DNA of 40,641 nt from a virus. This document shows, piece after piece, positions 530 through 40,641 of this stretch. A model generated the notes under the pieces. The model was not told where the DNA came from and made no database searches. It saw nothing but the letters and a program-made list of their open reading frames with translations. Each line of letters opens with the position of its first letter. Position 1 is the stretch's first letter. The position numbers were made by a program, and so were the translations under genes. The stretch is from IMG/VR virus record IMGVR_UViG_3300032087_000106, positions 1 to 40,641 of that record. One strand, 5' to 3'.

Positions 530-2215
530 ATGAAGCAGCAACAAGCCGTCCCTGAGGCTCTGAGAGACTTTAGGAACTTTACATACCTAGTATGGCAGCA
601 TCTTGGACTACCAGAGCCTACACCAGTACAGTACGACATTGCGAACTACCTGCAACATAGTCCCAAGCGTTGTATTATCGAAGCCTTTCGTGGTGTAGGT
701 AAGTCTTATATCACTGCTGCCTACGTGGTTCACCAGCTACTGCTAGACCCACAGCTAAAGTTTATGGTTGTGTCAGCGTCTAAGGCACGTGCTGATGACT
801 TCTCCACGTTTACACAGCGTATTATTATGGAACTGCCCATATGCCAGCATCTAGTGGCTAAAGAAGGGCAGAGATGGTCTAAGATAGCGTTTGATGTCGC
901 ACCAGCTAAAGCATCTGGTAGCCCCTCTGTAAAGAGTGTGGGTGTTACTGGACAGCTTACAGGTAGTCGTGCTGACATCATCATTGCTGATGACGTAGAA
1001 GTACCCAACAACTCTATGACACACATGATGCGTGAGAAGTTGTCAGAGACTGTTAAGGAATTTGACGCTGTTCTCAAGCCTGAGGGTAAGATTATCTATC
1101 TAGGTACGCCTCAAAACGAGATGAGCTTGTATAACGTACTTCTTAGCCGTGGATACCACATGAGGGTATGGCCTGCACGGTATCCTACCCTAGAACGAGC
1201 AGAGAAGGCCTATGGCGGCAGGTTAGCACCTTTCCTGTATGAAACCCTACAGGAGAAGCTAGAGGCCGTGTACGGGCTTCCTACGGACGATAAACGATTT
1301 GACGACACAGATTTGTTAGAAAGAGAACTAAGTTATGGTAGAAGCGGTTTTGCTTTGCAATTTATGCTGGATACTAGCCTCAGTGATGCAAACAAATATC
1401 CGCTTAAACTAAGTGACTTGATTGTATACTCATGTGATAAAGATTCTGCACCTGAAAAGATGGTGTATGGTATCATGAAGCCCATGTCAGACATTCCTAA
1501 TGTGGGTTTAAGTGGCGATAAGTTCTATGCGCCAGAAGATACAGTAGGCAGGGCTGCATATACAGGCTCAGTGATGGCTATTGACCCATCAGGTAGAGGT
1601 AGTGACGAGACTGCTTACTCGATTGTGAAGATGTTAAATGGTTTCTTGTATGTTGTGGACTGTGGTGGTGTTGAGGGTGGTTACTCCGATACAACGCTAC
1701 AGCATCTGACAGACTTGGCTAAGATACATCAAGTAAACACTGTGCTGATTGAGAGTAACTTTGGTGACGGGATGTTCACTGAGCTACTCAAGCCTTACAT
1801 GTTGAAGACTTATCCAGTAACTCTGGAAGAGGTAAGGCACAATACACAGAAGGAACATCGTATTATTGACACGTTAGAGCCTGTTATGAACCAGCATAGG
1901 TTAGTTATAGACCCTAAGGTAGTACAAAAGGACTATGACAGTGTACAGAACATGCCCCCTGAAAAGGGTATTAAGTACATGCTTACCTATCAGATGACTA
2001 GGATTACTAAACAACGTGGAGCATTAGCACATGACGATAGACTTGACGTTCTTGCTATGGCAGTGCAGTACTGGACAGAGCAGATGGCTGCTGATGCAGA
2101 TACAGAAATACGAACAAGAAAAGAAGAACTACTTGATAATGAACTAGAAAAGTTCATGGGACACCTTAACATGGGACAGAAAGATAGTCGTCAGGATGGG
2201 TGGATTCAAATCTAA
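530..2215 (+). CDS. terL: Terminase large subunit (T7 gp19-like)
   Basis: 561 aa against 586 in T7. This is the ATP-driven packaging motor and headful nuclease. The ATPase domain shows Walker A F-R-G-V-G-K-S at about residues 53-59 and Walker B I-I-I-A-D-D-V-E at about 150-157. The S-P-S-V-K-S-V-G-x-T-G-Q-L-T-G-S-R-A-D block, shared almost word for word with T7 gp19, lies between them. The nuclease domain has I-D-P-S-G-R-G-x-D-E at about 351-360 and A-H-D-D-R-L-D near the C-terminus. It acts with the small subunit at the portal vertex. The stop codon is part of a putative phage promoter motif (2212-2228) and a strong terminator follows at once. Confidence 0.98.
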   Translation: MKQQQAVPEALRDFRNFTYLVWQHLGLPEPTPVQYDIANYLQHSPKRCIIEAFRGVGKSYITAAYVVHQLLLDPQLKFMVVSASKARADDFSTFTQRIIMELPICQHLVAKEGQRWSKIAFDVAPAKASGSPSVKSVGVTGQLTGSRADIIIADDVEVPNNSMTHMMREKLSETVKEFDAVLKPEGKIIYLGTPQNEMSLYNVLLSRGYHMRVWPARYPTLERAEKAYGGRLAPFLYETLQEKLEAVYGLPTDDKRFDDTDLLERELSYGRSGFALQFMLDTSLSDANKYPLKLSDLIVYSCDKDSAPEKMVYGIMKPMSDIPNVGLSGDKFYAPEDTVGRAAYTGSVMAIDPSGRGSDETAYSIVKMLNGFLYVVDCGGVEGGYSDTTLQHLTDLAKIHQVNTVLIESNFGDGMFTELLKPYMLKTYPVTLEEVRHNTQKEHRIIDTLEPVMNQHRLVIDPKVVQKDYDSVQNMPPEKGIKYMLTYQMTRITKQRGALAHDDRLDVLAMAVQYWTEQMAADADTEIRTRKEELLDNELEKFMGHLNMGQKDSRQDGWIQI

Positions 2216-2228
2216 AGTTACAACCTAG
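2212..2228 (+). promoter_or_regulatory. Putative phage RNA polymerase promoter, copy 1 (after terL)
   Basis: CTAAAGTTACAACCTAG, overlapping the terL stop codon. The same core occurs at 9784, 18315 and 33061, always at a gene junction. By position this matches T7 phi-OR, after gene 19. It lies a few bases before the hairpin terminator at 2232, so transcription starting here would give a short hairpin RNA unless polymerase reads through. Promoter function is inferred from recurrence and placement. Confidence 0.6.
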
Positions 2229-2231
2229 ACA

Positions 2232-2271
2232 AGACCCCCTTTAACTATAGCTTTAAGTAGGGGGTCTTTTT
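2232..2271 (+). terminator. Strong intrinsic terminator after terL
   Basis: A perfect 9-bp inverted repeat, AGACCCCCT (2232-2240) and AGGGGGTCT (2259-2267), is followed by a T-run (2267-2271). The loop can extend pairing through TTAA/TTAA. It ends the late packaging operon. The 5' arm plus part of the loop (2231-2249) is perfectly complementary to the leader of the RNA polymerase gene (7315-7333); see findings. Confidence 0.9.
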
Positions 2272-2570: not shown

Positions 2571-2599
2571 ATTATAACACGTCAAACAATGCTTGTCAA
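2571..2599 (-). promoter_or_regulatory. Consensus sigma70 promoter, leftward
   Basis: Read on the minus strand: perfect TTGACA (2599-2594), a 17-nt spacer and perfect TATAAT (2576-2571). It faces the rightward promoter at 2506-2535 and would transcribe antisense to the small gene at 2306 and the end of terL. No minus-strand gene is evident, so any product would be an antisense or non-coding RNA. Confidence 0.55.
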
Positions 2600-4582: not shown

Positions 4583-4810
4583 ATGTATAAGCTACAGCTA
4601 CTGCAAGGCAGGAAGAAACCACTAGTACTGGACAAACTCAAGTCAGCAGAGGATGCTATCAACAATGGTGCCGCATACTTAGGGCTGACACACAAGGACT
4701 ATGACTTTGGACAGTCGGTAAAATACCTATTGACAAAGGGTGAGTTACAGTTCACTGTAGGCAGAGCAGGACAAAAGCCTGAGACAATACTAATAGAGGT
4801 GATGTTATGA
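4583..4810 (+). CDS. Hypothetical early protein
   Basis: 75 aa, starting one base after the previous gene, with AAGGATGG upstream. It has a basic N-terminus (L-L-Q-G-R-K-K-P) and no motifs I recognise. Its end overlaps the start of the PP-loop gene by 4 nt (ATGA), so the two are probably translationally coupled. Confidence 0.7.
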   Translation: MYKLQLLQGRKKPLVLDKLKSAEDAINNGAAYLGLTHKDYDFGQSVKYLLTKGELQFTVGRAGQKPETILIEVML

Positions 4811-5589
4811 TTATAGCGTGGTGGTCAGCAGGTGTGACTAGTGCAGTAGCTACTAAGCTTGCGATAGATGAGTATGGTATTGACAATGTGTTGCCTGTAT
4901 ACTTTCACATTGACACAGCACATGAAGATAACGCACGGTTCAAGGCAGAGTGTGAGCAGTGGTATGGCAGAGAGATTGTTACACACAAGGCAGATAAGTA
5001 TAACAATCAGTTCGATGTGATACGCAAAGACAAGTACATCAACGGTGCAGGTGGTGCAAGGTGTACGCTTGTACTCAAGAAGCGAGTGCGTATGAAACTG
5101 GAAAAAGAATTAGATTACACAGGGCAGGTGTTTGGTTTTGAATACAGCAAAAAAGAAATCAACAGGGCTATCAGGTTTAGTGAGCAGTACCCAACCGCAC
5201 TGCCTCTGTTCCCATTGATTGAACACAAGATGACCAAGCCTGAGTGCTTGTACTATCTAGAGAAGCAGGGTATCAAGCGGCCTAAGATGTACGAGTTGGG
5301 GTATGGCAACAACAACTGTATCGGATGTGTCAAGGGTGGCATGGGGTATTGGAATAAGATACGCAAAGACTTTCCTGATGTGTATGCAGAGATGGCAAAG
5401 GCAGAGCGTGAACTAGGTAGGTCATGCCTCAAGTCTACATTCCTAGATGAACTAGACCCACAAGCAGGGCGAGAGCAGAAGATAATCATGCCTGACTGTG
5501 GTAACTTCTGTGACATAGAGTTTGCAGACGTCATGCACAAAAATGTGGAGAAAATTTACGAAGAACCCAAGCAACTTAGACTGATATAG
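4807..5589 (+). CDS. PP-loop ATP pyrophosphatase / PAPS reductase-like protein
   Basis: 260 aa. The N-terminal W-W-S-A-G-V-T-S-A-V-A (residues 5-15) is a PP-loop in the position of the S-G-G-x-x-S motif of PAPS reductase, DndC and tRNA-thiolation enzymes. These bind ATP and form an adenylate or act on sulfur donors. N-G-A-G-G-A-R-C-T (about 79-87) matches the second conserved block of phage members. Cysteines at 171/174 (C-I-G-C-V-K-G), 207, 231 and 235 could hold zinc or an Fe-S cluster. No C-terminal E-C-G-L-H of true PAPS reductase is seen, so sulfate assimilation is less likely than nucleobase or tRNA chemistry. No partner modification genes are adjacent. Confidence 0.8.
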   Translation: MIIAWWSAGVTSAVATKLAIDEYGIDNVLPVYFHIDTAHEDNARFKAECEQWYGREIVTHKADKYNNQFDVIRKDKYINGAGGARCTLVLKKRVRMKLEKELDYTGQVFGFEYSKKEINRAIRFSEQYPTALPLFPLIEHKMTKPECLYYLEKQGIKRPKMYELGYGNNNCIGCVKGGMGYWNKIRKDFPDVYAEMAKAERELGRSCLKSTFLDELDPQAGREQKIIMPDCGNFCDIEFADVMHKNVEKIYEEPKQLRLI

Positions 5590-7156: not shown

Positions 7157-7311
7157 TGGATGCAATACTACTAGTATGGATAACATGTATGCTGGCTGTA
7201 GCAGTGGTTGGTATGTTAGGTGACTACGAAGCAGTAACAGGTGTACAGTTTGTAGTGATGTTGGCTGGTGTACTGGTCATTGGTATGGCAGGTATGATAG
7301 CCGTAGTTTAA
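7156..7311 (+). CDS. Small membrane protein with two predicted spans
   Basis: 51 aa from ATG 7156, overlapping the previous TGA; an in-frame GTG at 7126 lacks a ribosome site. Two hydrophobic stretches (about residues 3-21 and 29-51) are separated by G-D-Y-E-A-V-T-G. No specific family recognised. It is directly upstream of the RNA polymerase leader. Confidence 0.6.
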   Translation: MDAILLVWITCMLAVAVVGMLGDYEAVTGVQFVVMLAGVLVIGMAGMIAVV

Positions 7312-7314
7312 GTA

Positions 7315-7333
7315 TATAGTTAAAGGGGGTCTT
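7315..7333 (+). promoter_or_regulatory. RNA polymerase leader complementary to the terL terminator arm
   Basis: TATAGTTAAAGGGGGTCTT contains the Shine-Dalgarno (AAAGGGGG) for the TTG start at 7337. All 19 bases are perfectly complementary to 2231-2249, the 5' arm and loop of the terminator after terL. Both lie on the same strand, so their RNAs could pair in trans and hide the ribosome site. Confidence 0.6.
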
Positions 7334-7336
7334 ATC

Positions 7337-8134
7337 TTGGTTGTAACTTTAGAAACAAACAAAGACCTATTTGAACACCAGCTTGAGTTAGAAGCAGACA
7401 TGCTGACAGGTGGCATACAACGCTTCAGGAAAGCCAGAGACAGGGCTATCGAATCAGGCAGGGAGACACACATGCCACACGGTAGAGCCATTGTAGCACG
7501 TATTGTGGGCGATGTAGCAGAGGGTGTGAGAGAGTACCTAGCTAACCCAAGCAACCCATCACGTGACATAGCGTGGAAGCGTATCAACGAGATGGATGCA
7601 GAGCAGGTAGCATACCTGAGTGTGGTGTCCATGGTTGACAGCATCAGCAGAAAGAATACACTGCTGTATGTAGCTCGTACCATTGGTACTAACATAGAGA
7701 TGCAAGACAGGCTGGACAGGTGGATACATGCCGAAGGTAACGTAGCTCGTAACACAATCAAAGAAGCTATGAAGAAAGCCTATGGTGCTAGACGCTATGG
7801 CCTGACACACAAGATGAACAAGGATGGCTACGAAGAATCAACATGGCTCAAGTCAGAGCGTGTGCATGTAGGCTTCAAGATGGTTGACCTAATCATACAG
7901 TGTACAGGTATCATCAAGCTGGACACACAACAGACTGAGCGTAAACGCAGAGCCACCTACGTTGTACCTACAGAGGGTACGCTAGAATTTATACAGGCTT
8001 TCAATGAGTACATTGAGGTATCAAGACCACGCTACCTACCATGTGTGGTGACACCCAAGCAGTGGACAGATGTGCAGGGTGGTGGGTATCATGGTCACGA
8101 CATAGATGAACTACCAATAGTGAGGCGCAAATGA
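7337..8134 (+). CDS. Phage RNA polymerase, N-terminal part (split T7 RNAP-like)
   Basis: 265 aa. It starts at TTG 7337, 8 nt after AAAGGGGG; the next ATG (7400) would cut into conserved sequence. It matches the T7 RNA polymerase N-terminal domain from about T7 residue 35. E-L-E-A-D...R-F-R-K corresponds to T7 A-L-E-H-E...R-F-R-K, W-L-K-S-E-R-V-H-V-G-F-K to W-H-K-E-D-S-I-H-V-G-V-R, and P-C-V-V-T-P-K-Q-W-T-D-V-Q-G-G-G-Y to P-C-V-V-P-P-K-P-W-T-G-I-T-G-G-G-Y. The domain binds promoter DNA and nascent RNA. It stops at the equivalent of T7 residue about 298, and the catalytic part continues in the next ORF. No catalytic residues are expected here. Confidence 0.9.
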   Translation: MVVTLETNKDLFEHQLELEADMLTGGIQRFRKARDRAIESGRETHMPHGRAIVARIVGDVAEGVREYLANPSNPSRDIAWKRINEMDAEQVAYLSVVSMVDSISRKNTLLYVARTIGTNIEMQDRLDRWIHAEGNVARNTIKEAMKKAYGARRYGLTHKMNKDGYEESTWLKSERVHVGFKMVDLIIQCTGIIKLDTQQTERKRRATYVVPTEGTLEFIQAFNEYIEVSRPRYLPCVVTPKQWTDVQGGGYHGHDIDELPIVRRK

Positions 8135-9780
8135 GTTTGAAGACACACCTACGCAGACTAAGAGAGCAGGACTTGTCGCAGGAGTATGCTTGTCTCAACT
8201 CTTTGCAACAAACTGAGTGGCGTATTAATCAATCGTTGTTGCAGGTAATACGTACCCTGTGGGACAACGGACAGGAATGGGGCAAGCTGCCAGCAAGGGA
8301 TGATGTACCACTACCAGAGTACCCCTTCGACAGAGACCCCAAGGAGTTGACTGAGAGTGAGAGGGAGTTGTTCCGTGCATGGTCACGACAGAGGAACCAC
8401 ATCTACTCCCTTAACAACCGAAGTGTGAGCAAGCGCATACAAGTAGAGAGAACCTTGCAGATTGCAGAACAGTTTGCACAGTACGACAGGTTCTACTACG
8501 TGTGGCAGAATGATTTCAGGTCACGCAAGTATGCAAGTAGCACCTTCCTCTCGCCTCAGTCTGCTGATTGGAGCAAGGCACTGCTAGAGTTTGGCTACCC
8601 TATGCCCATCAAGAATTGGGATGATGCACGTTGGTTGTGTATTCATGGGGCTAATCTCTATGGCAATGACAAGGTAACTCTAGACCAGCGTGAGACATGG
8701 GCTTGGGAATACGCAGAGATGTGGGCGCATCGTGTCGTGTCCAACCCATACGAGTGTGGTGTGTGGCGTGAAGCTGACAAGCCATTCCAGTTCCTAGCTT
8801 GGTGCTACGAGATGTCAGGCCTGATGAAGCAGGGATGGGGGTACGAGACACGACTACCTGTATCAGCAGATGGGTCATGCAATGGACTGCAACACCTCTC
8901 TGCCATACTCAGGGACAGGCATGGTGGTGTAGCTACTAACCTTGTGCCATCAGACCTACCCCAAGACATCTACACACAGGTGGCAGACAAGACTATCGCA
9001 CGTGTACAACAGGATGAGACAGAACTGGCACGTAAATGCTTGGCCTTTGGCATAGACAGGAAGCTTGCCAAGCGTCCAGTAATGATAGTCCCGTACTCAG
9101 GTACACGTCACGCCTGTCGTGCCTACATAGAGGAAGCTATGCGAGAAAAGATAGACAGTGGTGGGGACAATCCTTTCGGTGATGACTTGTTTGATGCGTC
9201 ATCGTATCTGTCTAGACATGTGTGGGATTCAATCAGTGAGGTGATTGTATCTGCTCGTAAGGTTATGGACTACATCAAGGACGTGGCTGATGTGTATGCC
9301 AGCATGGGCAAGCACATGGAGTGGGTCACACCTACAGGATGGATTGTGTTACAACAATATAGTGAGGTGCAACAAAAGAGAATCAAGACACACATCAATG
9401 GGGAGATAGTATCGCTATCCTTTCCCAGAGATAAACCAAACTCTGTGAACAGGCAGAGGACAGGGCTGGGCAGTAGCCCCAACTTTATCCACAGTCTGGA
9501 TGCAGCAGCTATGACTAAGACAATCAACAAGGCTAACAAGCTAGGCATACAGGACTTTGCCATGGTGCATGACAGCTATGGTACACACAGTCCAATGATG
9601 CCCCTCTTGTCTGAGGTATTGCGTGAAGAGTTTGTTGAGATGTATGAGCAACATGATGTCTTGACTGAGTTGAGGCAACATGCTATAAGGGTACTTGGTA
9701 CTGAAGATATACCAATGCCACCAGCTAGGGGTGAATTAAATTTGCGTGACATATTAGAATCACAATATTTCTTTGCGTGA
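8131..9780 (+). CDS. Phage RNA polymerase, catalytic part (split T7 RNAP-like)
   Basis: 549 aa, covering T7 residues from about 300 to the end. The palm Asp is in A-D-G-S-C-N-G-L-Q-H (D247, T7 D537). K314 and Y322 in A-K-R-P-V-M-I-V-P-Y match T7 K631 and Y639. H480-D481 in M-V-H-D-S-Y-G match H811-D812. The C-terminal L-N-L-R-D-I-L-E-S-Q-Y-F-F-A ends in the aromatic foot like T7. All key residues are present, so the enzyme should be active with its N-terminal partner. The start has its own GAGG 5 nt upstream and a 4-nt ATGA overlap with the first part, typical of coupled genes. The frame change is -1; a programmed shift or a sequence error remain alternatives. Confidence 0.95.
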   Translation: MSLKTHLRRLREQDLSQEYACLNSLQQTEWRINQSLLQVIRTLWDNGQEWGKLPARDDVPLPEYPFDRDPKELTESERELFRAWSRQRNHIYSLNNRSVSKRIQVERTLQIAEQFAQYDRFYYVWQNDFRSRKYASSTFLSPQSADWSKALLEFGYPMPIKNWDDARWLCIHGANLYGNDKVTLDQRETWAWEYAEMWAHRVVSNPYECGVWREADKPFQFLAWCYEMSGLMKQGWGYETRLPVSADGSCNGLQHLSAILRDRHGGVATNLVPSDLPQDIYTQVADKTIARVQQDETELARKCLAFGIDRKLAKRPVMIVPYSGTRHACRAYIEEAMREKIDSGGDNPFGDDLFDASSYLSRHVWDSISEVIVSARKVMDYIKDVADVYASMGKHMEWVTPTGWIVLQQYSEVQQKRIKTHINGEIVSLSFPRDKPNSVNRQRTGLGSSPNFIHSLDAAAMTKTINKANKLGIQDFAMVHDSYGTHSPMMPLLSEVLREEFVEMYEQHDVLTELRQHAIRVLGTEDIPMPPARGELNLRDILESQYFFA

Positions 9781-9783
9781 TTT

Positions 9784-9800
9784 CTAAAGTTACAACCTAG
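9784..9800 (+). promoter_or_regulatory. Putative phage promoter, copy 2 (before ssb)
   Basis: CTAAAGTTACAACCTAG, identical over 17 bases to copy 1, just after the RNA polymerase stop and 35 nt before ssb. T7 has phi-2.5 at the same place. Confidence 0.65.
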
Positions 9801-16441: not shown

Positions 16442-18318
16442 TGGATAGTTATCAATCGTATATACATGCCAGCCGATATGCACGATGGCTAGAAGATAAA
16501 GGAAGACGTGAGACTTGGGAAGAAACTGTAGACCGTTGGTGGAACTACATGACTGACAAGTTTCCAGCCCTTGAGCAGAGGCAGGATGTCAAGGTTGCTA
16601 TCCATGACCTTGAGGTAGTACCATCTATGCGTACTATCATGACAGCAGGTGAGGCACTAGACCGTAACCAAGTAGCTGCATACAACTGTAGCTTCCTAGC
16701 TGTAGATGACCCCAAGGCTTTCGATGAAGCTCTGCTTGTACTCATGTGTGGTACAGGTGTGGGCTTCTCTGTGGAGCGTCAGTTCATCAGCAAGTTACCT
16801 GAAGTACCAGCAGAGTTACACGATACAGATGAGGTAGTCGTAGTAGCAGACAGTAAAGAGGGATGGGCAAAGGCACTACGTCAGATTATCTCTCGCTTGT
16901 ATGCTGGTGAGATACCTAAGTGGGACGTGTCTAAAGTACGTCCAGCAGGTGCAAGACTGAAGACATTCGGTGGACGTGCATCAGGTGCAGAGCCATTGGA
17001 GAACTTGTTTAAGTTTGCCATCAACACCTTCACCAAGGCAGCAGGACGTAAGCTCAACAGCCTTGAGTGCCATGACCTCATGTGTCAGGTAGCTGCTGCT
17101 GTAGTTGTGGGTGGTGTACGTAGGTCAGCCATGATTAGTCTGTCCAACCTGAGTGATGACCGTATGCGTCATGCTAAGATGGGTAACTGGTGGAATGACC
17201 AAGTAAACCGTAGCTATGCTAACAACTCTATCAGCTTTACTGAGAAGCCTGACATGGGTAGCTTCCTGCGTGAGTGGACATCTATCTATGAATCTAAGTC
17301 AGGTGAGCGTGGTATCTTCAACCGTGAGGCAGCTAAAGCAAAGGCTGTATCTATCGGACGTGAGGCACGTGATGACTTCGGTACTAACCCTTGTGGGGAG
17401 ATTAGTCTACGCAGCAAGCAGTTCTGTAATCTGTCAGAGGTTATCATACGTGAGACTGATGGAGTAGGTGAGCTAGTAAAGAAGGTAGAGATTGCTACCA
17501 TCATTGGTACAATACAGTCAGCACTAGTAGACTTTAAGTATCTATCACCTAAGTGGAAGAAGAACTCAGAAGAGGAGCGTCTACTAGGCGTGTCACTGAC
17601 TGGTATCTTTGACCACAAGATTATGTCAGGGCAGGGCGAGTATGAATCAAACATACTAGCTGGTACTCTGGCAAAGTTGCGTGAGGTTACACGTGAGACT
17701 AACAAAGAGTGGGCAGCTAAACTAGGTATTCCAGAATCTAAGGCCATCACCACAGTCAAGCCTAGTGGCACAGTGTCACAGCTTGTAAACAGTGGTAGTG
17801 GTATCCATCCTCGTTATGCTAAGTATTACATAAGAAGAGTGAGAGCAGATGTTAAAGACCCTCTGGCAACGTGGATGCAAGACAAGGGAGTTCCTTGTGA
17901 AACAGATGTGTACAATCCGCAAAACTTGGTATTCAGTTTCCCAATGAAGTCAGCAGACAATAGCTTAACACGACATGATGTGTCGGCTATTGAACACTTA
18001 GAGTTATGGCTCAAGTATCGCAAGCACTGGACTGACCACAACCCATCAGTCACTATCTATGTAGGGGAAGATGAGTGGGCAGAAGTAGGTGCGTGGGTGT
18101 ACAAACATTGGGATGAAATCTGTGGTGTGTCTTTCCTACCACGTGAAGATGACAATCACAGCTATGCACAAGCACCATATGAAGAAGTAGATGAAGAAGC
18201 ATATGCAAAACTCAAGGAAGAAATGCCTGACATTGACTTCTCAGAGTATGCAGAACTAGCTGATAACACTACATCTTCTCAGGAATTAGCGTGTACAGCA
18301 GGTGTATGTGAAATCTAA
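16441..18318 (+). CDS. Class II (adenosylcobalamin-dependent) ribonucleotide reductase, monomeric
   Basis: 625 aa. It reduces ribonucleoside triphosphates to deoxy forms using B12. Spacing matches the Lactobacillus leichmannii enzyme: N-P-C-G-E-I-S-L gives N316, C318 and E320, and C329 follows 11 residues after C318, as C408/C419 do there. C83 is the partner redox cysteine. The C-terminal A-C-T-A-G-V-C-E-I supplies the reductant pair (spacing of 5, as C731/C736). K-P-S-G-T-V-S-Q-L-V-N-S-G-S-G-I-H is a further RNR block. No small subunit or activase is present, as expected. The host must supply B12. The stop codon is part of a putative phage promoter. Confidence 0.95.
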   Translation: MDSYQSYIHASRYARWLEDKGRRETWEETVDRWWNYMTDKFPALEQRQDVKVAIHDLEVVPSMRTIMTAGEALDRNQVAAYNCSFLAVDDPKAFDEALLVLMCGTGVGFSVERQFISKLPEVPAELHDTDEVVVVADSKEGWAKALRQIISRLYAGEIPKWDVSKVRPAGARLKTFGGRASGAEPLENLFKFAINTFTKAAGRKLNSLECHDLMCQVAAAVVVGGVRRSAMISLSNLSDDRMRHAKMGNWWNDQVNRSYANNSISFTEKPDMGSFLREWTSIYESKSGERGIFNREAAKAKAVSIGREARDDFGTNPCGEISLRSKQFCNLSEVIIRETDGVGELVKKVEIATIIGTIQSALVDFKYLSPKWKKNSEEERLLGVSLTGIFDHKIMSGQGEYESNILAGTLAKLREVTRETNKEWAAKLGIPESKAITTVKPSGTVSQLVNSGSGIHPRYAKYYIRRVRADVKDPLATWMQDKGVPCETDVYNPQNLVFSFPMKSADNSLTRHDVSAIEHLELWLKYRKHWTDHNPSVTIYVGEDEWAEVGAWVYKHWDEICGVSFLPREDDNHSYAQAPYEEVDEEAYAKLKEEMPDIDFSEYAELADNTTSSQELACTAGVCEI

Positions 18319-18332
18319 AGTTACAACATTAG
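18315..18332 (+). promoter_or_regulatory. Putative phage promoter, copy 3 (before virion genes)
   Basis: CTAAAGTTACAACATTAG. It shares AAATCTAAAGTTACAAC (17 bases) with the copy after terL, including the upstream bases, and again contains the TAA stop of the upstream gene. It lies where T7 has phi-6.5 and stands before the head gene block. Confidence 0.65.
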
Positions 18333-32700: not shown

Positions 32701-33059
32701 GTCTTATGTACATGACACGTGTACAGCTTAATGCTGCTGGACGTGGTGATGCAGATGAGTATATACAAGAACGTATGTCACCTGCAAATTTTGCTGAAGG
32801 TGCTTTAAGTCAGATTGGTGCAGCTTCTTTGTTTGGTTACATCTATCAACTGACTACTGGTGCTATGGATGGTAATACATATGCCATGACACCACCTGCT
32901 GTTTCTATTGCTCAATCAATGTTTCAAGTAACAAAAGCTTATAATGATGGTGAGATTACAGAAGCAGAATATCGTAGAATGTTACGACTGCTTCCTGCAC
33001 AATCTTTGTATGGAGCGAGACAGTTAATTAACTATACAGCAAACGAGCTAGGTAACTAA
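29736..33059 (+). CDS. Internal virion protein, T7 gp16-like, without transglycosylase domain
   Basis: 1107 aa against 1318 in T7. The large helical ejection protein reaches the inner membrane. Ala/Gly-rich hydrophobic segments at about residues 135-180 and 225-245 could contact membrane. F-F-Q-F-L-S-F-P-L-A-S-L-E-Q-Q-A near residue 950 fits the gp16 C-terminal region. The N-terminus does not show the SLT motif set (catalytic E-S, then G-x-M-Q) present in T7 gp16, consistent with a length about 210 aa shorter. The stop is followed one base later by a putative phage promoter. Confidence 0.87.
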   Translation: MAENSQQVLKDLGFKTGYEELPSLQTVTEAELFQAREEAAPETKGFASSLGTAIQEEWIIPSIYENLDRFRSYDGEPVELTPEITESLSSGLLDKTAIKEVLQEAATVGMESALAVKETHLTTEKRRAELAAEGYTGTTATVLATMFDPAEWATIGVSAAAISALSGPAAPVTGGAVLTAGAARRAKKAYSVGRAALAGAGVTAAELAAFESLRAKLKYDVDANDVLITAGLGAGLGGGINAATTAFVKRANVSRLAKIVAEGGELTPAQKAFYDANNVEATAQKLIDDTLKDETFIQSIDATSTARAIGDISAEEAAAIPKIAGAENKVMGWSINKLRDLVSVGYRTGSSKLNLARLGGAKLGMNSVGFVDGTTKTVDSASEIGERIQGQFRIPAAYTLHPNQRAWTKRTGGTIEEFNQLASRYARGIISDVDPEVKAVADLVKEQERKLAEMAIKNDVAGFTSEILDRHTSYLPRMFNDDRVIATYQKFGDKADDVFADLVEKAIRNAQPDIVADVTKSLQRKGRKKIAQKDIDNYIRRIAQGYAKTITDPKVGMAKGPAGSNEMNIQDFLDTFKDKFDEDELLDVMEILTRTGKDISKTHKRARPRMILDEKASILATRADGEVEEIHFYDLLEEDIEQLHNSYIFQMSGAIGLARNGIDTNQAKSSWGTFKENILQEAKKKGIDPTKEIQALDFMYDGITGRLAQREEVSNAWREGFIAARAYSFSVNMGMSGMSALMELSNAVFEYSVSTLLRTMPAYRGLYAKASKGRLDDDLMRELVEGLGIGGEVILGRFNKTTRYEGGNVEGYIGPEQSGWSKRAIKAQQFVSYWSGLNGVTQTLRRMSMLHFSTQFARAAKKGGKVFSDVKLRQLGLDDDDVKAIKEAINDYSDFKGSVLKKLNLKDWPEPVREKFQAAGFKEARQSVQEMNIASTNSKLRSEVGKTFFQFLSFPLASLEQQAVRLGVRARQGDLAVAKVIVASALMGSLMYMTRVQLNAAGRGDADEYIQERMSPANFAEGALSQIGAASLFGYIYQLTTGAMDGNTYAMTPPAVSIAQSMFQVTKAYNDGEITEAEYRRMLRLLPAQSLYGARQLINYTANELGN

Positions 33060-33060
33060 C

Positions 33061-33078
33061 CTAAAGTTACATCATTAG
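33061..33078 (+). promoter_or_regulatory. Putative phage promoter, copy 4 (before tail fibre)
   Basis: CTAAAGTTACATCATTAG, one mismatch in the 13-base core and sharing CATTAG with copy 3. It lies 18 nt before the fibre start codon. T7 phi-17 is at the same place. Confidence 0.62.
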
Positions 33079-33096: not shown

Positions 33097-34227
33097 ATGG
33101 CTCTTTCATATCAAAACTACACAGGGGATAATACGACTACTACGTTTTCCATCCCCTTCACATTTCAAAATACAAGTGAGATTAGCGTCACTGTAGATGG
33201 TGTGGCTGAAACAGGCCTGACCTTTCCTTCTACTTCTACTGTGCAGCTAACCTCTGCTCCATCAACAGGTGCAGTTGTACAAGTAAGACGTACAACAGAC
33301 CTAACAGCACGTGCAGTTGACTTTGCCTCAGGCTCAGTCCTAACAGAAGAAGACTTGGATAATAGTAGTATTCAGGTCTTCCACGCTGCACAGGAAGCTA
33401 ACGACAGAGTTGGCGATACCATTGGTCTAGATACTACCAATCGCTGGGATGCTGGTGGTAACATCATTAAGAATGTTGGAGACCCCATAAACAATACGGA
33501 CGCTGTAAACAAGCAGTTCTTATCTACCAACTTGCCTGACATCAACACTGTGGCAGGTATTGAAACAGAAGTAACAACTGTTGCAGGTATAGCTAGTACG
33601 CTTACAGCTAACTTAACTGACATTCAAAACGCTGAAGAACACGCACAGGAAGCTAAAGACTACGCCATCAAAGTAGATGGTGAAGTACAAGAAAATGGTG
33701 TAAACACTGGTAACTACTCATCTAAGGCTTGGGCTATCGGAGACAACGGTGGAGTAAGTAACACGGCTGGTGCTGGTCCTGCAAAGGATTGGGCTGTTGA
33801 GACCACTGGTCAAGTTGATGGTACAGAATATTCATCCAAAGAATATGCTATTGGTACACAAGCTGGTAATACTGCTGGCTCCGCTAAACAGTGGGCTATT
33901 GGTGGTGGAACAGGTTTTGACCGTGATACTGCTGTCGCTGGTGGCGAGTATTCCGCTAAGTATTGGGCAAATCAAGCTAAAAACGAAACTCAATCTCAAC
34001 GTGATGTGTATTACGGAGCATTTACTAGTGATGCTAATGCTGAAGCGTATCAATTAGGTGCTGCACCTACAGGAAATGCTGGTACAGTAGATGTTGGGGA
34101 CTTGTACTTCAATAATACTAGTAACACATTACGTGTACGTACCTTTTCTGGGTGGCAAGACGCTGCCGCAGATACATCTAATTTCGCCACTAACGGCTTC
34201 GCAATCGCAATGGCAATCGCCCTATAG
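33097..34227 (+). CDS. Tail fibre adaptor, N-terminal T7 gp17-like
   Basis: 376 aa against 553 in T7. The first 110 residues (S-Y-Q-N-Y-T-G-D-N-T-T-T-T-F, L-T-E-E-D-L-D, A-A-Q-E-A-N-D-R-V) are the T7-fibre N-terminal anchor that binds the tail. After it come helical and A-K-x-W-A-type repeats (K-D-W-A-V-E, K-Q-W-A-I-G, K-Y-W-A-N-Q) forming a shaft. The end (F-A-T-N-G-F-A-I-A-M-A-I-A-L) is short and has no receptor-binding head, so another fibre protein probably attaches. Possible partners follow directly. AAAGGAAAAGAG precedes the ATG. Confidence 0.92.
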   Translation: MALSYQNYTGDNTTTTFSIPFTFQNTSEISVTVDGVAETGLTFPSTSTVQLTSAPSTGAVVQVRRTTDLTARAVDFASGSVLTEEDLDNSSIQVFHAAQEANDRVGDTIGLDTTNRWDAGGNIIKNVGDPINNTDAVNKQFLSTNLPDINTVAGIETEVTTVAGIASTLTANLTDIQNAEEHAQEAKDYAIKVDGEVQENGVNTGNYSSKAWAIGDNGGVSNTAGAGPAKDWAVETTGQVDGTEYSSKEYAIGTQAGNTAGSAKQWAIGGGTGFDRDTAVAGGEYSAKYWANQAKNETQSQRDVYYGAFTSDANAEAYQLGAAPTGNAGTVDVGDLYFNNTSNTLRVRTFSGWQDAAADTSNFATNGFAIAMAIAL

Positions 34228-40411: not shown

Positions 40412-40623
40412 ACCAAAAACAACAGATGGATGATTTACACGCTGCTGTTACTGCTGACCTCTTGGCACGTGTACGTAGTGGGGAAGCTACAGCTAGTGAA
40501 CTATCAGTGGCTGTTAAGTTTCTAAAAGACAATGGGGCTAGTCTTGATGTTATTATGGCAGAAAGTCCTATGGACAACCTATTAAAAGACCTACCCTTTG
40601 AGGTGGCAGAAAGTATACAATGA
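40408..40623 (+). CDS. Terminase small subunit (T7 gp18-like)
   Basis: 71 aa from ATG 40408, which overlaps the lysozyme stop and has GGAG about 10 nt upstream; the in-frame GTG at 40402 is the less likely start. L-H-A-A-V-T-A-D-L-L-A-R-V-R-S-G-E-A-T-A-S-E-L-S-V-A fits T7-type small terminases (T7 gp18 89 aa), followed by A-V-K-F-L-K-D-N-G. It recognises DNA for packaging with TerL. In T7 gp18 also precedes gp19 with small genes between. Confidence 0.85.
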   Translation: MNQKQQMDDLHAAVTADLLARVRSGEATASELSVAVKFLKDNGASLDVIMAESPMDNLLKDLPFEVAESIQ

Positions 40624-40641
40624 GAGGACATAACGCCAGTT
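40558..40641. repeat. Right copy of 84-bp terminal direct repeat (contig overlap)
   Basis: Exact copy of bases 1-84. Joining the two ends restores an intact terS and the gene after it without loss of frame, which supports circular closure. Confidence 0.9.

Follow-up and report, generated by a model that had tools for sequence, protein, structure and literature searches.

Phage T7 has the promoter phiOR after terL and phi1.1 after the RNA polymerase (RNAP) gene, while no phage promoter is annotated at the polymerase start, and its polymerase is kept in check by the gp3.5 lysozyme, i.e. by a protein. In LUZ100, the promoter phi1 located upstream of the RNAP gene has been mapped experimentally and a positive feedback was proposed for it in a temperate setting (PMC10134795). 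The viral genome analyzed here (the whole stretch of 40,641 nt, further referred to as the window) resembles LUZ100 in having a putative promoter for its own T7-type polymerase at the polymerase gene, which also sets it apart from T7, and the LUZ100 promoters phi2 (after RNAP) and phi8 (after terL) occupy the positions of forward promoter copies in the window (PMC10134795). However, phi1 is placed on the plus strand approximately 80 nt upstream of the RNAP gene, while its counterpart in the window is found on the minus strand and spans the start codon.

The window represents a T7-like genome from IMG/VR with terL (530–2215, plus strand, 561 aa; PF22530, E = 3.7e-42; phrog_38, E = 5e-123), a split RNA polymerase, a Gp2.5-like SSB, endonuclease I, primase-helicase and DNA polymerase A, and no cultured phage is closely related to it: the best matches among cultured phages were about 61% identical for terL and about 40% for the C-part of the polymerase. 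The T7-type RNAP is encoded by two ORFs with an ATGA overlap, one for the N-terminal domain with a TTG start (7337–8134, plus strand, 265 aa; PF14700 RPOL_N, E = 1.2e-11; phrog_414, E = 4e-45) and another for the catalytic part (8131–9780, plus strand, 549 aa; PF00940, E = 2.4e-98; phrog_414, E = 2.7e-190), in contrast to the single RNAP ORF of the cultured CRP phages. The split was kept in the relatives examined, with an N-part of about 263–286 aa in most of the complete cases and a 1-nt gap in L190. The polymerase thereby resembles a naturally two-subunit enzyme of the type of N4 RNAPII, and no report of a split T7-like polymerase was found in the searched literature, which comprised open papers. 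A virulent lifestyle of the phage is likely, since no integrase was found among the early genes tested. The identical 84-bp ends (1–84 and 40,558–40,641) point to either a circularized record or a terminally redundant assembly, so that the true genome ends are not given by the record. The early genes include a PAPS-reductase-like gene (4807–5589; phrog_424, E = 2.6e-48). They are preceded by an intergenic cluster of TTGACA/TGTCAAA words in both orientations at 2560–2700, possibly representing repeated regulator sites, and a perfect leftward sigma-70-type promoter (2571–2599, minus strand; TTGACA-17-TATAAT with TG) faces terL there in a position similar to that of the leftward A0 promoter at the left end of the T7 genome. 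A host-type scan of the window found promoter-like sites barely in excess (44 against 37.4 expected) and terminator-like sites not in excess (10 against 10.9).

The preliminary description of this DNA proposed that the region after terL pairs with the polymerase leader over 19 nt more perfectly than chance would allow. The match is real: positions 2231–2249 (AAGACCCCCTTTAACTATA) are the exact reverse complement of 7315–7333, and the latter contains, as had been claimed, the Shine-Dalgarno sequence AAAGGGGG (7322–7329, plus strand) just upstream of TTG at 7337, where the polymerase gene starts. Among the relatives listed, the G-run at the Shine-Dalgarno position was conserved. No perfect inverted match within the window is longer than these 19 nt, while the longest matches in 40 first-order Markov simulations of the same length reached 13–17 nt. 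Its extent, on the other hand, had been underestimated, since the 19 nt are only a part of a 46-nt inverted repeat (2211–2256 on the plus strand after terL and 7308–7353 on the minus strand, spanning the beginning of the RNAP gene) with 89% complementarity, in which the phage promoter motif TCTAAAGTTACAACC forms the outer part and the start of both arms. The 46-nt repeat, the shared promoter motif and the simulations together rule out a chance match. Both complementary sites are opposite-orientation copies of one cassette consisting of a promoter, a C-run and an AT-rich stretch. Two other explanations of the leader were dropped: a self-structure hiding the Shine-Dalgarno sequence found no support (fold z = 0.03), and a primase site (GGGTC in the G-run) was abandoned because GGGTC is not strictly conserved in the leaders.

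The motif TCTAAAGTTACAACC is present on the plus strand at 2211, 9783, 18314 (one mismatch) and 33060 (three mismatches), and on the minus strand at 7353. The forward copies correspond to putative promoters after terL (2210–2228, overlapping the terL stop codon, with the predicted +1 at G2228), after the RNAP gene (9782–9800, phi2-like and without the downstream C-run/AT-rich block), before the structural genes (18313–18330) and before the tail-fibre gene (33059–33076; PF03906 at 33097–34227). These additional copies support the promoter previously suggested at 2212–2228, while the minus-strand copy had been overlooked. The 19-nt block, considered as a possible component of every phage promoter, was absent at the 9783, 18314 and 33060 copies. 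T7 and LUZ100 have phage promoters at similar module positions, with T7 phiOR and phi1.1 being counterparts of the copies at 2210 and 9782, respectively. As in the T7-type RNAP promoters of Autographiviridae, a motif of about 18 bp is repeated at the module boundaries of one genome and changes along with the polymerase lineage. The dinucleotide [AT]G was found at an identical index in 61/61 plus-strand sites after RNAP, and the +1 positions were assigned from it; a purine (G) for the predicted start at this fixed distance was present in all 61 forward sites and, within one base, in 55 of the 61 backward sites described below.

The minus-strand copy forms a putative leftward phage promoter (7336–7354) overlapping the RNAP start codon. 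From the [AT]G index, its transcription is predicted to begin at 7336, a single base ahead of the TTG. The predicted leftward RNA begins with GAUAAGACCCCC, which is complementary to the Shine-Dalgarno sequence. A scan of 12 full or long relatives located the motif at the same boundaries, i.e. on the plus strand after terL, after RNAP and before the late genes and on the minus strand at the RNAP start, the latter being present in all but G065 and recognizable in G050 once its own motif was applied. Among 66 distinct loci having both polymerase ends, the minus-strand site at the RNAP start was conserved in 61, matching the locus's own post-RNAP promoter at 14–17 of 17 positions (mean for shuffles about 11), and the same 61 loci had no plus-strand site in the RNAP leader. 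The backward site and the post-RNAP promoter changed together through at least four specificity groups (GTTACA, GTTCCCC, CTGTACC and GTGTACC), and the N-terminal residues of the polymerase tracked the promoter (MVVTLET, MRGTLET and MGYSLEQ), with residues 2–4 differing between the groups exactly as the promoter letters do. The following codons were invariable: codon 5 was TTA in 35/35 distinct starts, compared with 12% of the Leu codons elsewhere, the Thr codon was ACT in 29/29 (30% elsewhere) and the Glu codon was GAA in 35/35 (44% elsewhere; two further loci had GAG). Such freezing of codons 4–6 indicates selection acting on the DNA site. The backward site is very probably a recognition site of the polymerase, for which the sequence comparisons provide strong support. 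Its bases at -3/-2, however, are set by the start codon (CCAAG or CCATG versus CCTAG in the forward sites), and so the site could be weak or bind the polymerase without firing. The open papers searched contained no description of a phage promoter facing backward over the start of an RNAP gene.

The five exceptions among the 66 loci were the g65 clade (L275, L276, L278 and L281), which lacks the backward promoter, and the mosaic L239. In the latter (G064/L239), the C-part and the downstream promoter belong to a different specificity group from the leader site. The same mosaic polymerase (L239/L168, contig 3300011253_000113) has an N-part, a leader and a terL promoter sharing one specificity group, while its C-part and the promoter that follows are of the CTGTACC group; it is either a recent recombinant or a chimeric assembly. 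Since the relatives are metagenome contigs, lone odd cases, such as L239/G064 and L064 (see below), could be assembly errors.

The orientation of the promoter is opposite in cultured temperate relatives. A plus-strand promoter was located 58–145 nt upstream of the RNAP gene in eight of them (CRP-114, CRP-125, CRP-361, RHEph01, YIMV22061, HTVC134P, BB8 and LUZ100), and a forward promoter was also recognized by eye in CRP-804, while in the same comparison HTVC011P and ProddE showed no forward promoter upstream of RNAP. The Roseobacter phages CRP-114, CRP-361 and CRP-125 (OR420740, OR420750 and OR420743, respectively) are marine T7-like phages with terL about 60% identical to that of the window and, similarly to the latter, have promoters near the start side of RNAP, after RNAP and after terL. 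They differ from the window in the forward orientation of the RNAP-upstream promoter, in a single RNAP gene and in the presence of an integrase and MarR. In CRP-114 and CRP-361, moreover, a C-run and AT-rich sequence come after both the RNAP-upstream and the post-terL promoters, suggesting that the cassette already existed before it was flipped; in the clade of the window, the complement of the C-run would then have become the Shine-Dalgarno sequence. The same block, however, is the basis of the main rival explanation, according to which the flipped cassettes act in replication or in the processing of concatemers (a promoter with an AT-rich block, such as T7 has at its origins and ends), one firing to the right after terL and the other to the left at the RNAP start, so that they flank the junction and the early region. 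A role in replication or packaging comes first among the rivals because the C-run and AT-rich block accompany only these two promoters, being absent from the post-RNAP and pre-late ones, and the arrangement in CRP-114 and CRP-361, as well as T7 phiOR behind terL and phiOL close to the left end of the T7 genome, fits with it. It is nevertheless considered improbable, as no T7 end promoter is known over the polymerase start codon and the overlap of the leftward site with the ribosome-binding site is exact.

The preliminary description offered yet another explanation, namely that the terL promoter makes a short hairpin RNA (approximately 2228–2272) which, by pairing in trans with the leader of the polymerase gene, prevents the translation of the latter. 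The terminator-like hairpin (2231–2271, plus strand; stems 2231–2240 and 2259–2268, followed by a U-run), whose first base lies at about +4 of the terL-side promoter, is a real fold in the window (-17.2 kcal/mol and z = -3.35 for 2231–2268 followed by U5), but its 3' arm is missing in several relatives, such as L143, where no short hairpin RNA is expected. In the L143-like genomes lacking the hairpin, the shared block extends to 90 nt (93% in L143). The proposed calculation of RNA-RNA energies favored the pairing: in the 31 genomes with the terL and RNAP ends on one contig, the duplex of the terL-promoter RNA with its own polymerase leader was far below the shuffled controls in most cases and was strongest, or nearly so, with the own partner (mean similarity 21.0 versus 12.3 for swapped partners; permutation p = 5e-5, uncorrected for kinship). 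In the window, the net binding of the terL RNA to the leader was -20.2 kcal/mol versus -5.2 (sd 2.9) for shuffles. The expected covariation was found only in part. A perfect complement of at least 13 nt between terL and the leader was kept in 20/31 genomes, while in the remaining 11 it was 11 nt or shorter, with nine of these retaining the backward promoter, and in these lineages the two sites have diverged without compensation, contrary to what the trans model would predict. The terL arms had a C-run in 20 and a G-run in six of the 31 genomes.

Furthermore, the terL arm of L064 (5327–5422) bears the RNAP-type cassette CATGAGAAGACCCCC, found elsewhere only at polymerase starts. The arms, therefore, appear to exchange sequence, and such an exchange would give the same co-variation, which weakens the latter as support for the pairing in trans. 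Both this case and the long identical tracts in some genomes (as in L143) next to short ones in others are also consistent with the complementarity being a by-product of a cassette that was copied in inverted form and whose arms have remained similar through recombination (gene conversion), the inner block having no RNA role. Switching by an invertible early region was rejected, since among 30 relatives the early region had the same orientation wherever homology was detectable and no opposite-orientation homology extended beyond the arms. The by-product explanation seems the least probable of all, as it leaves the strict conservation of the leftward promoter and its co-variation with the polymerase specificity unexplained, and none of the 30 relatives was seen to have an inverted early region. 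As for the RNA acting in trans, its promoter, hairpin and pairing stand as described, while as the main explanation it is unlikely: the RNAP copy is itself a leftward promoter which would already give a perfect antisense in cis, and, if the genome is circular or concatemeric, the function of the terL copy may instead be in packaging or replication. The predicted leftward RNA binds the leader at a net -62.8 kcal/mol versus -20.2 for the 47-nt terL RNA, which must open its own hairpin before binding. An RNA acting in trans is possible but secondary to the antisense in cis, and it may add to the effect of the latter in the window, although not in general.

The reading that best fits the data, and is favored here with some reservation, is a cis-antisense negative autoregulation of the split T7-type RNA polymerase. 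By its geometry, the locus combines an opposite-strand promoter with a predicted transcript overlapping the ribosome-binding site, as is characteristic of cis-antisense. Initiation at the backward site, as well as the sign and the size of its effect, are what we infer from this arrangement. The accumulating polymerase would fire the leftward promoter across the start of its own gene, and the RNA, after its first bases opposite the Shine-Dalgarno sequence, would run through the leader against the early genes. It would mask the ribosome-binding site and block the initiation of translation, while the head-on leftward transcription would oppose the host polymerase coming through the early region, resulting in a negative feedback on the polymerase combined with an early-gene shut-off. 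That the backward promoter acts as such a negative feedback is, on balance, somewhat more probable than the contrary, judging from its geometry. A partial analogy is the Bacillus subtilis dnaA, for which an antisense RNA over the 5' UTR has been described (PMC12112137), and the predicted RNA of the window overlaps the 5' untranslated region of its target similarly. In contrast to dnaA, the promoter in the window would be transcribed by the product of its own target gene, thus closing the loop. A broader scenario, advanced here tentatively as somewhat short of an even chance, is that a clade of marine T7-like phages flipped the positive-feedback promoter of RNAP across the start codon and thereby obtained a polymerase which represses itself by cis-antisense without a protein inhibitor, with the complement of the C-run serving as the Shine-Dalgarno sequence and the terL cassette capable of supplying antisense in trans.

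No transcription enzymes are used more in biotechnology than the T7-type polymerases, and, if the proposed mechanism is true, a conserved backward promoter over the start codon would represent a self-limiting circuit that is encoded in the DNA and needs very few parts. The model is directly testable in vitro, and the relatives supply many natural pairs of polymerase and promoter specificity. The feedback would be opposite in sign to that proposed for the temperate relatives, which would link the promoter orientation to lifestyle. The backward-promoter group comprises uncultured marine T7-like viruses which, judging from their genomes, probably use antisense to limit the production of their own polymerase.
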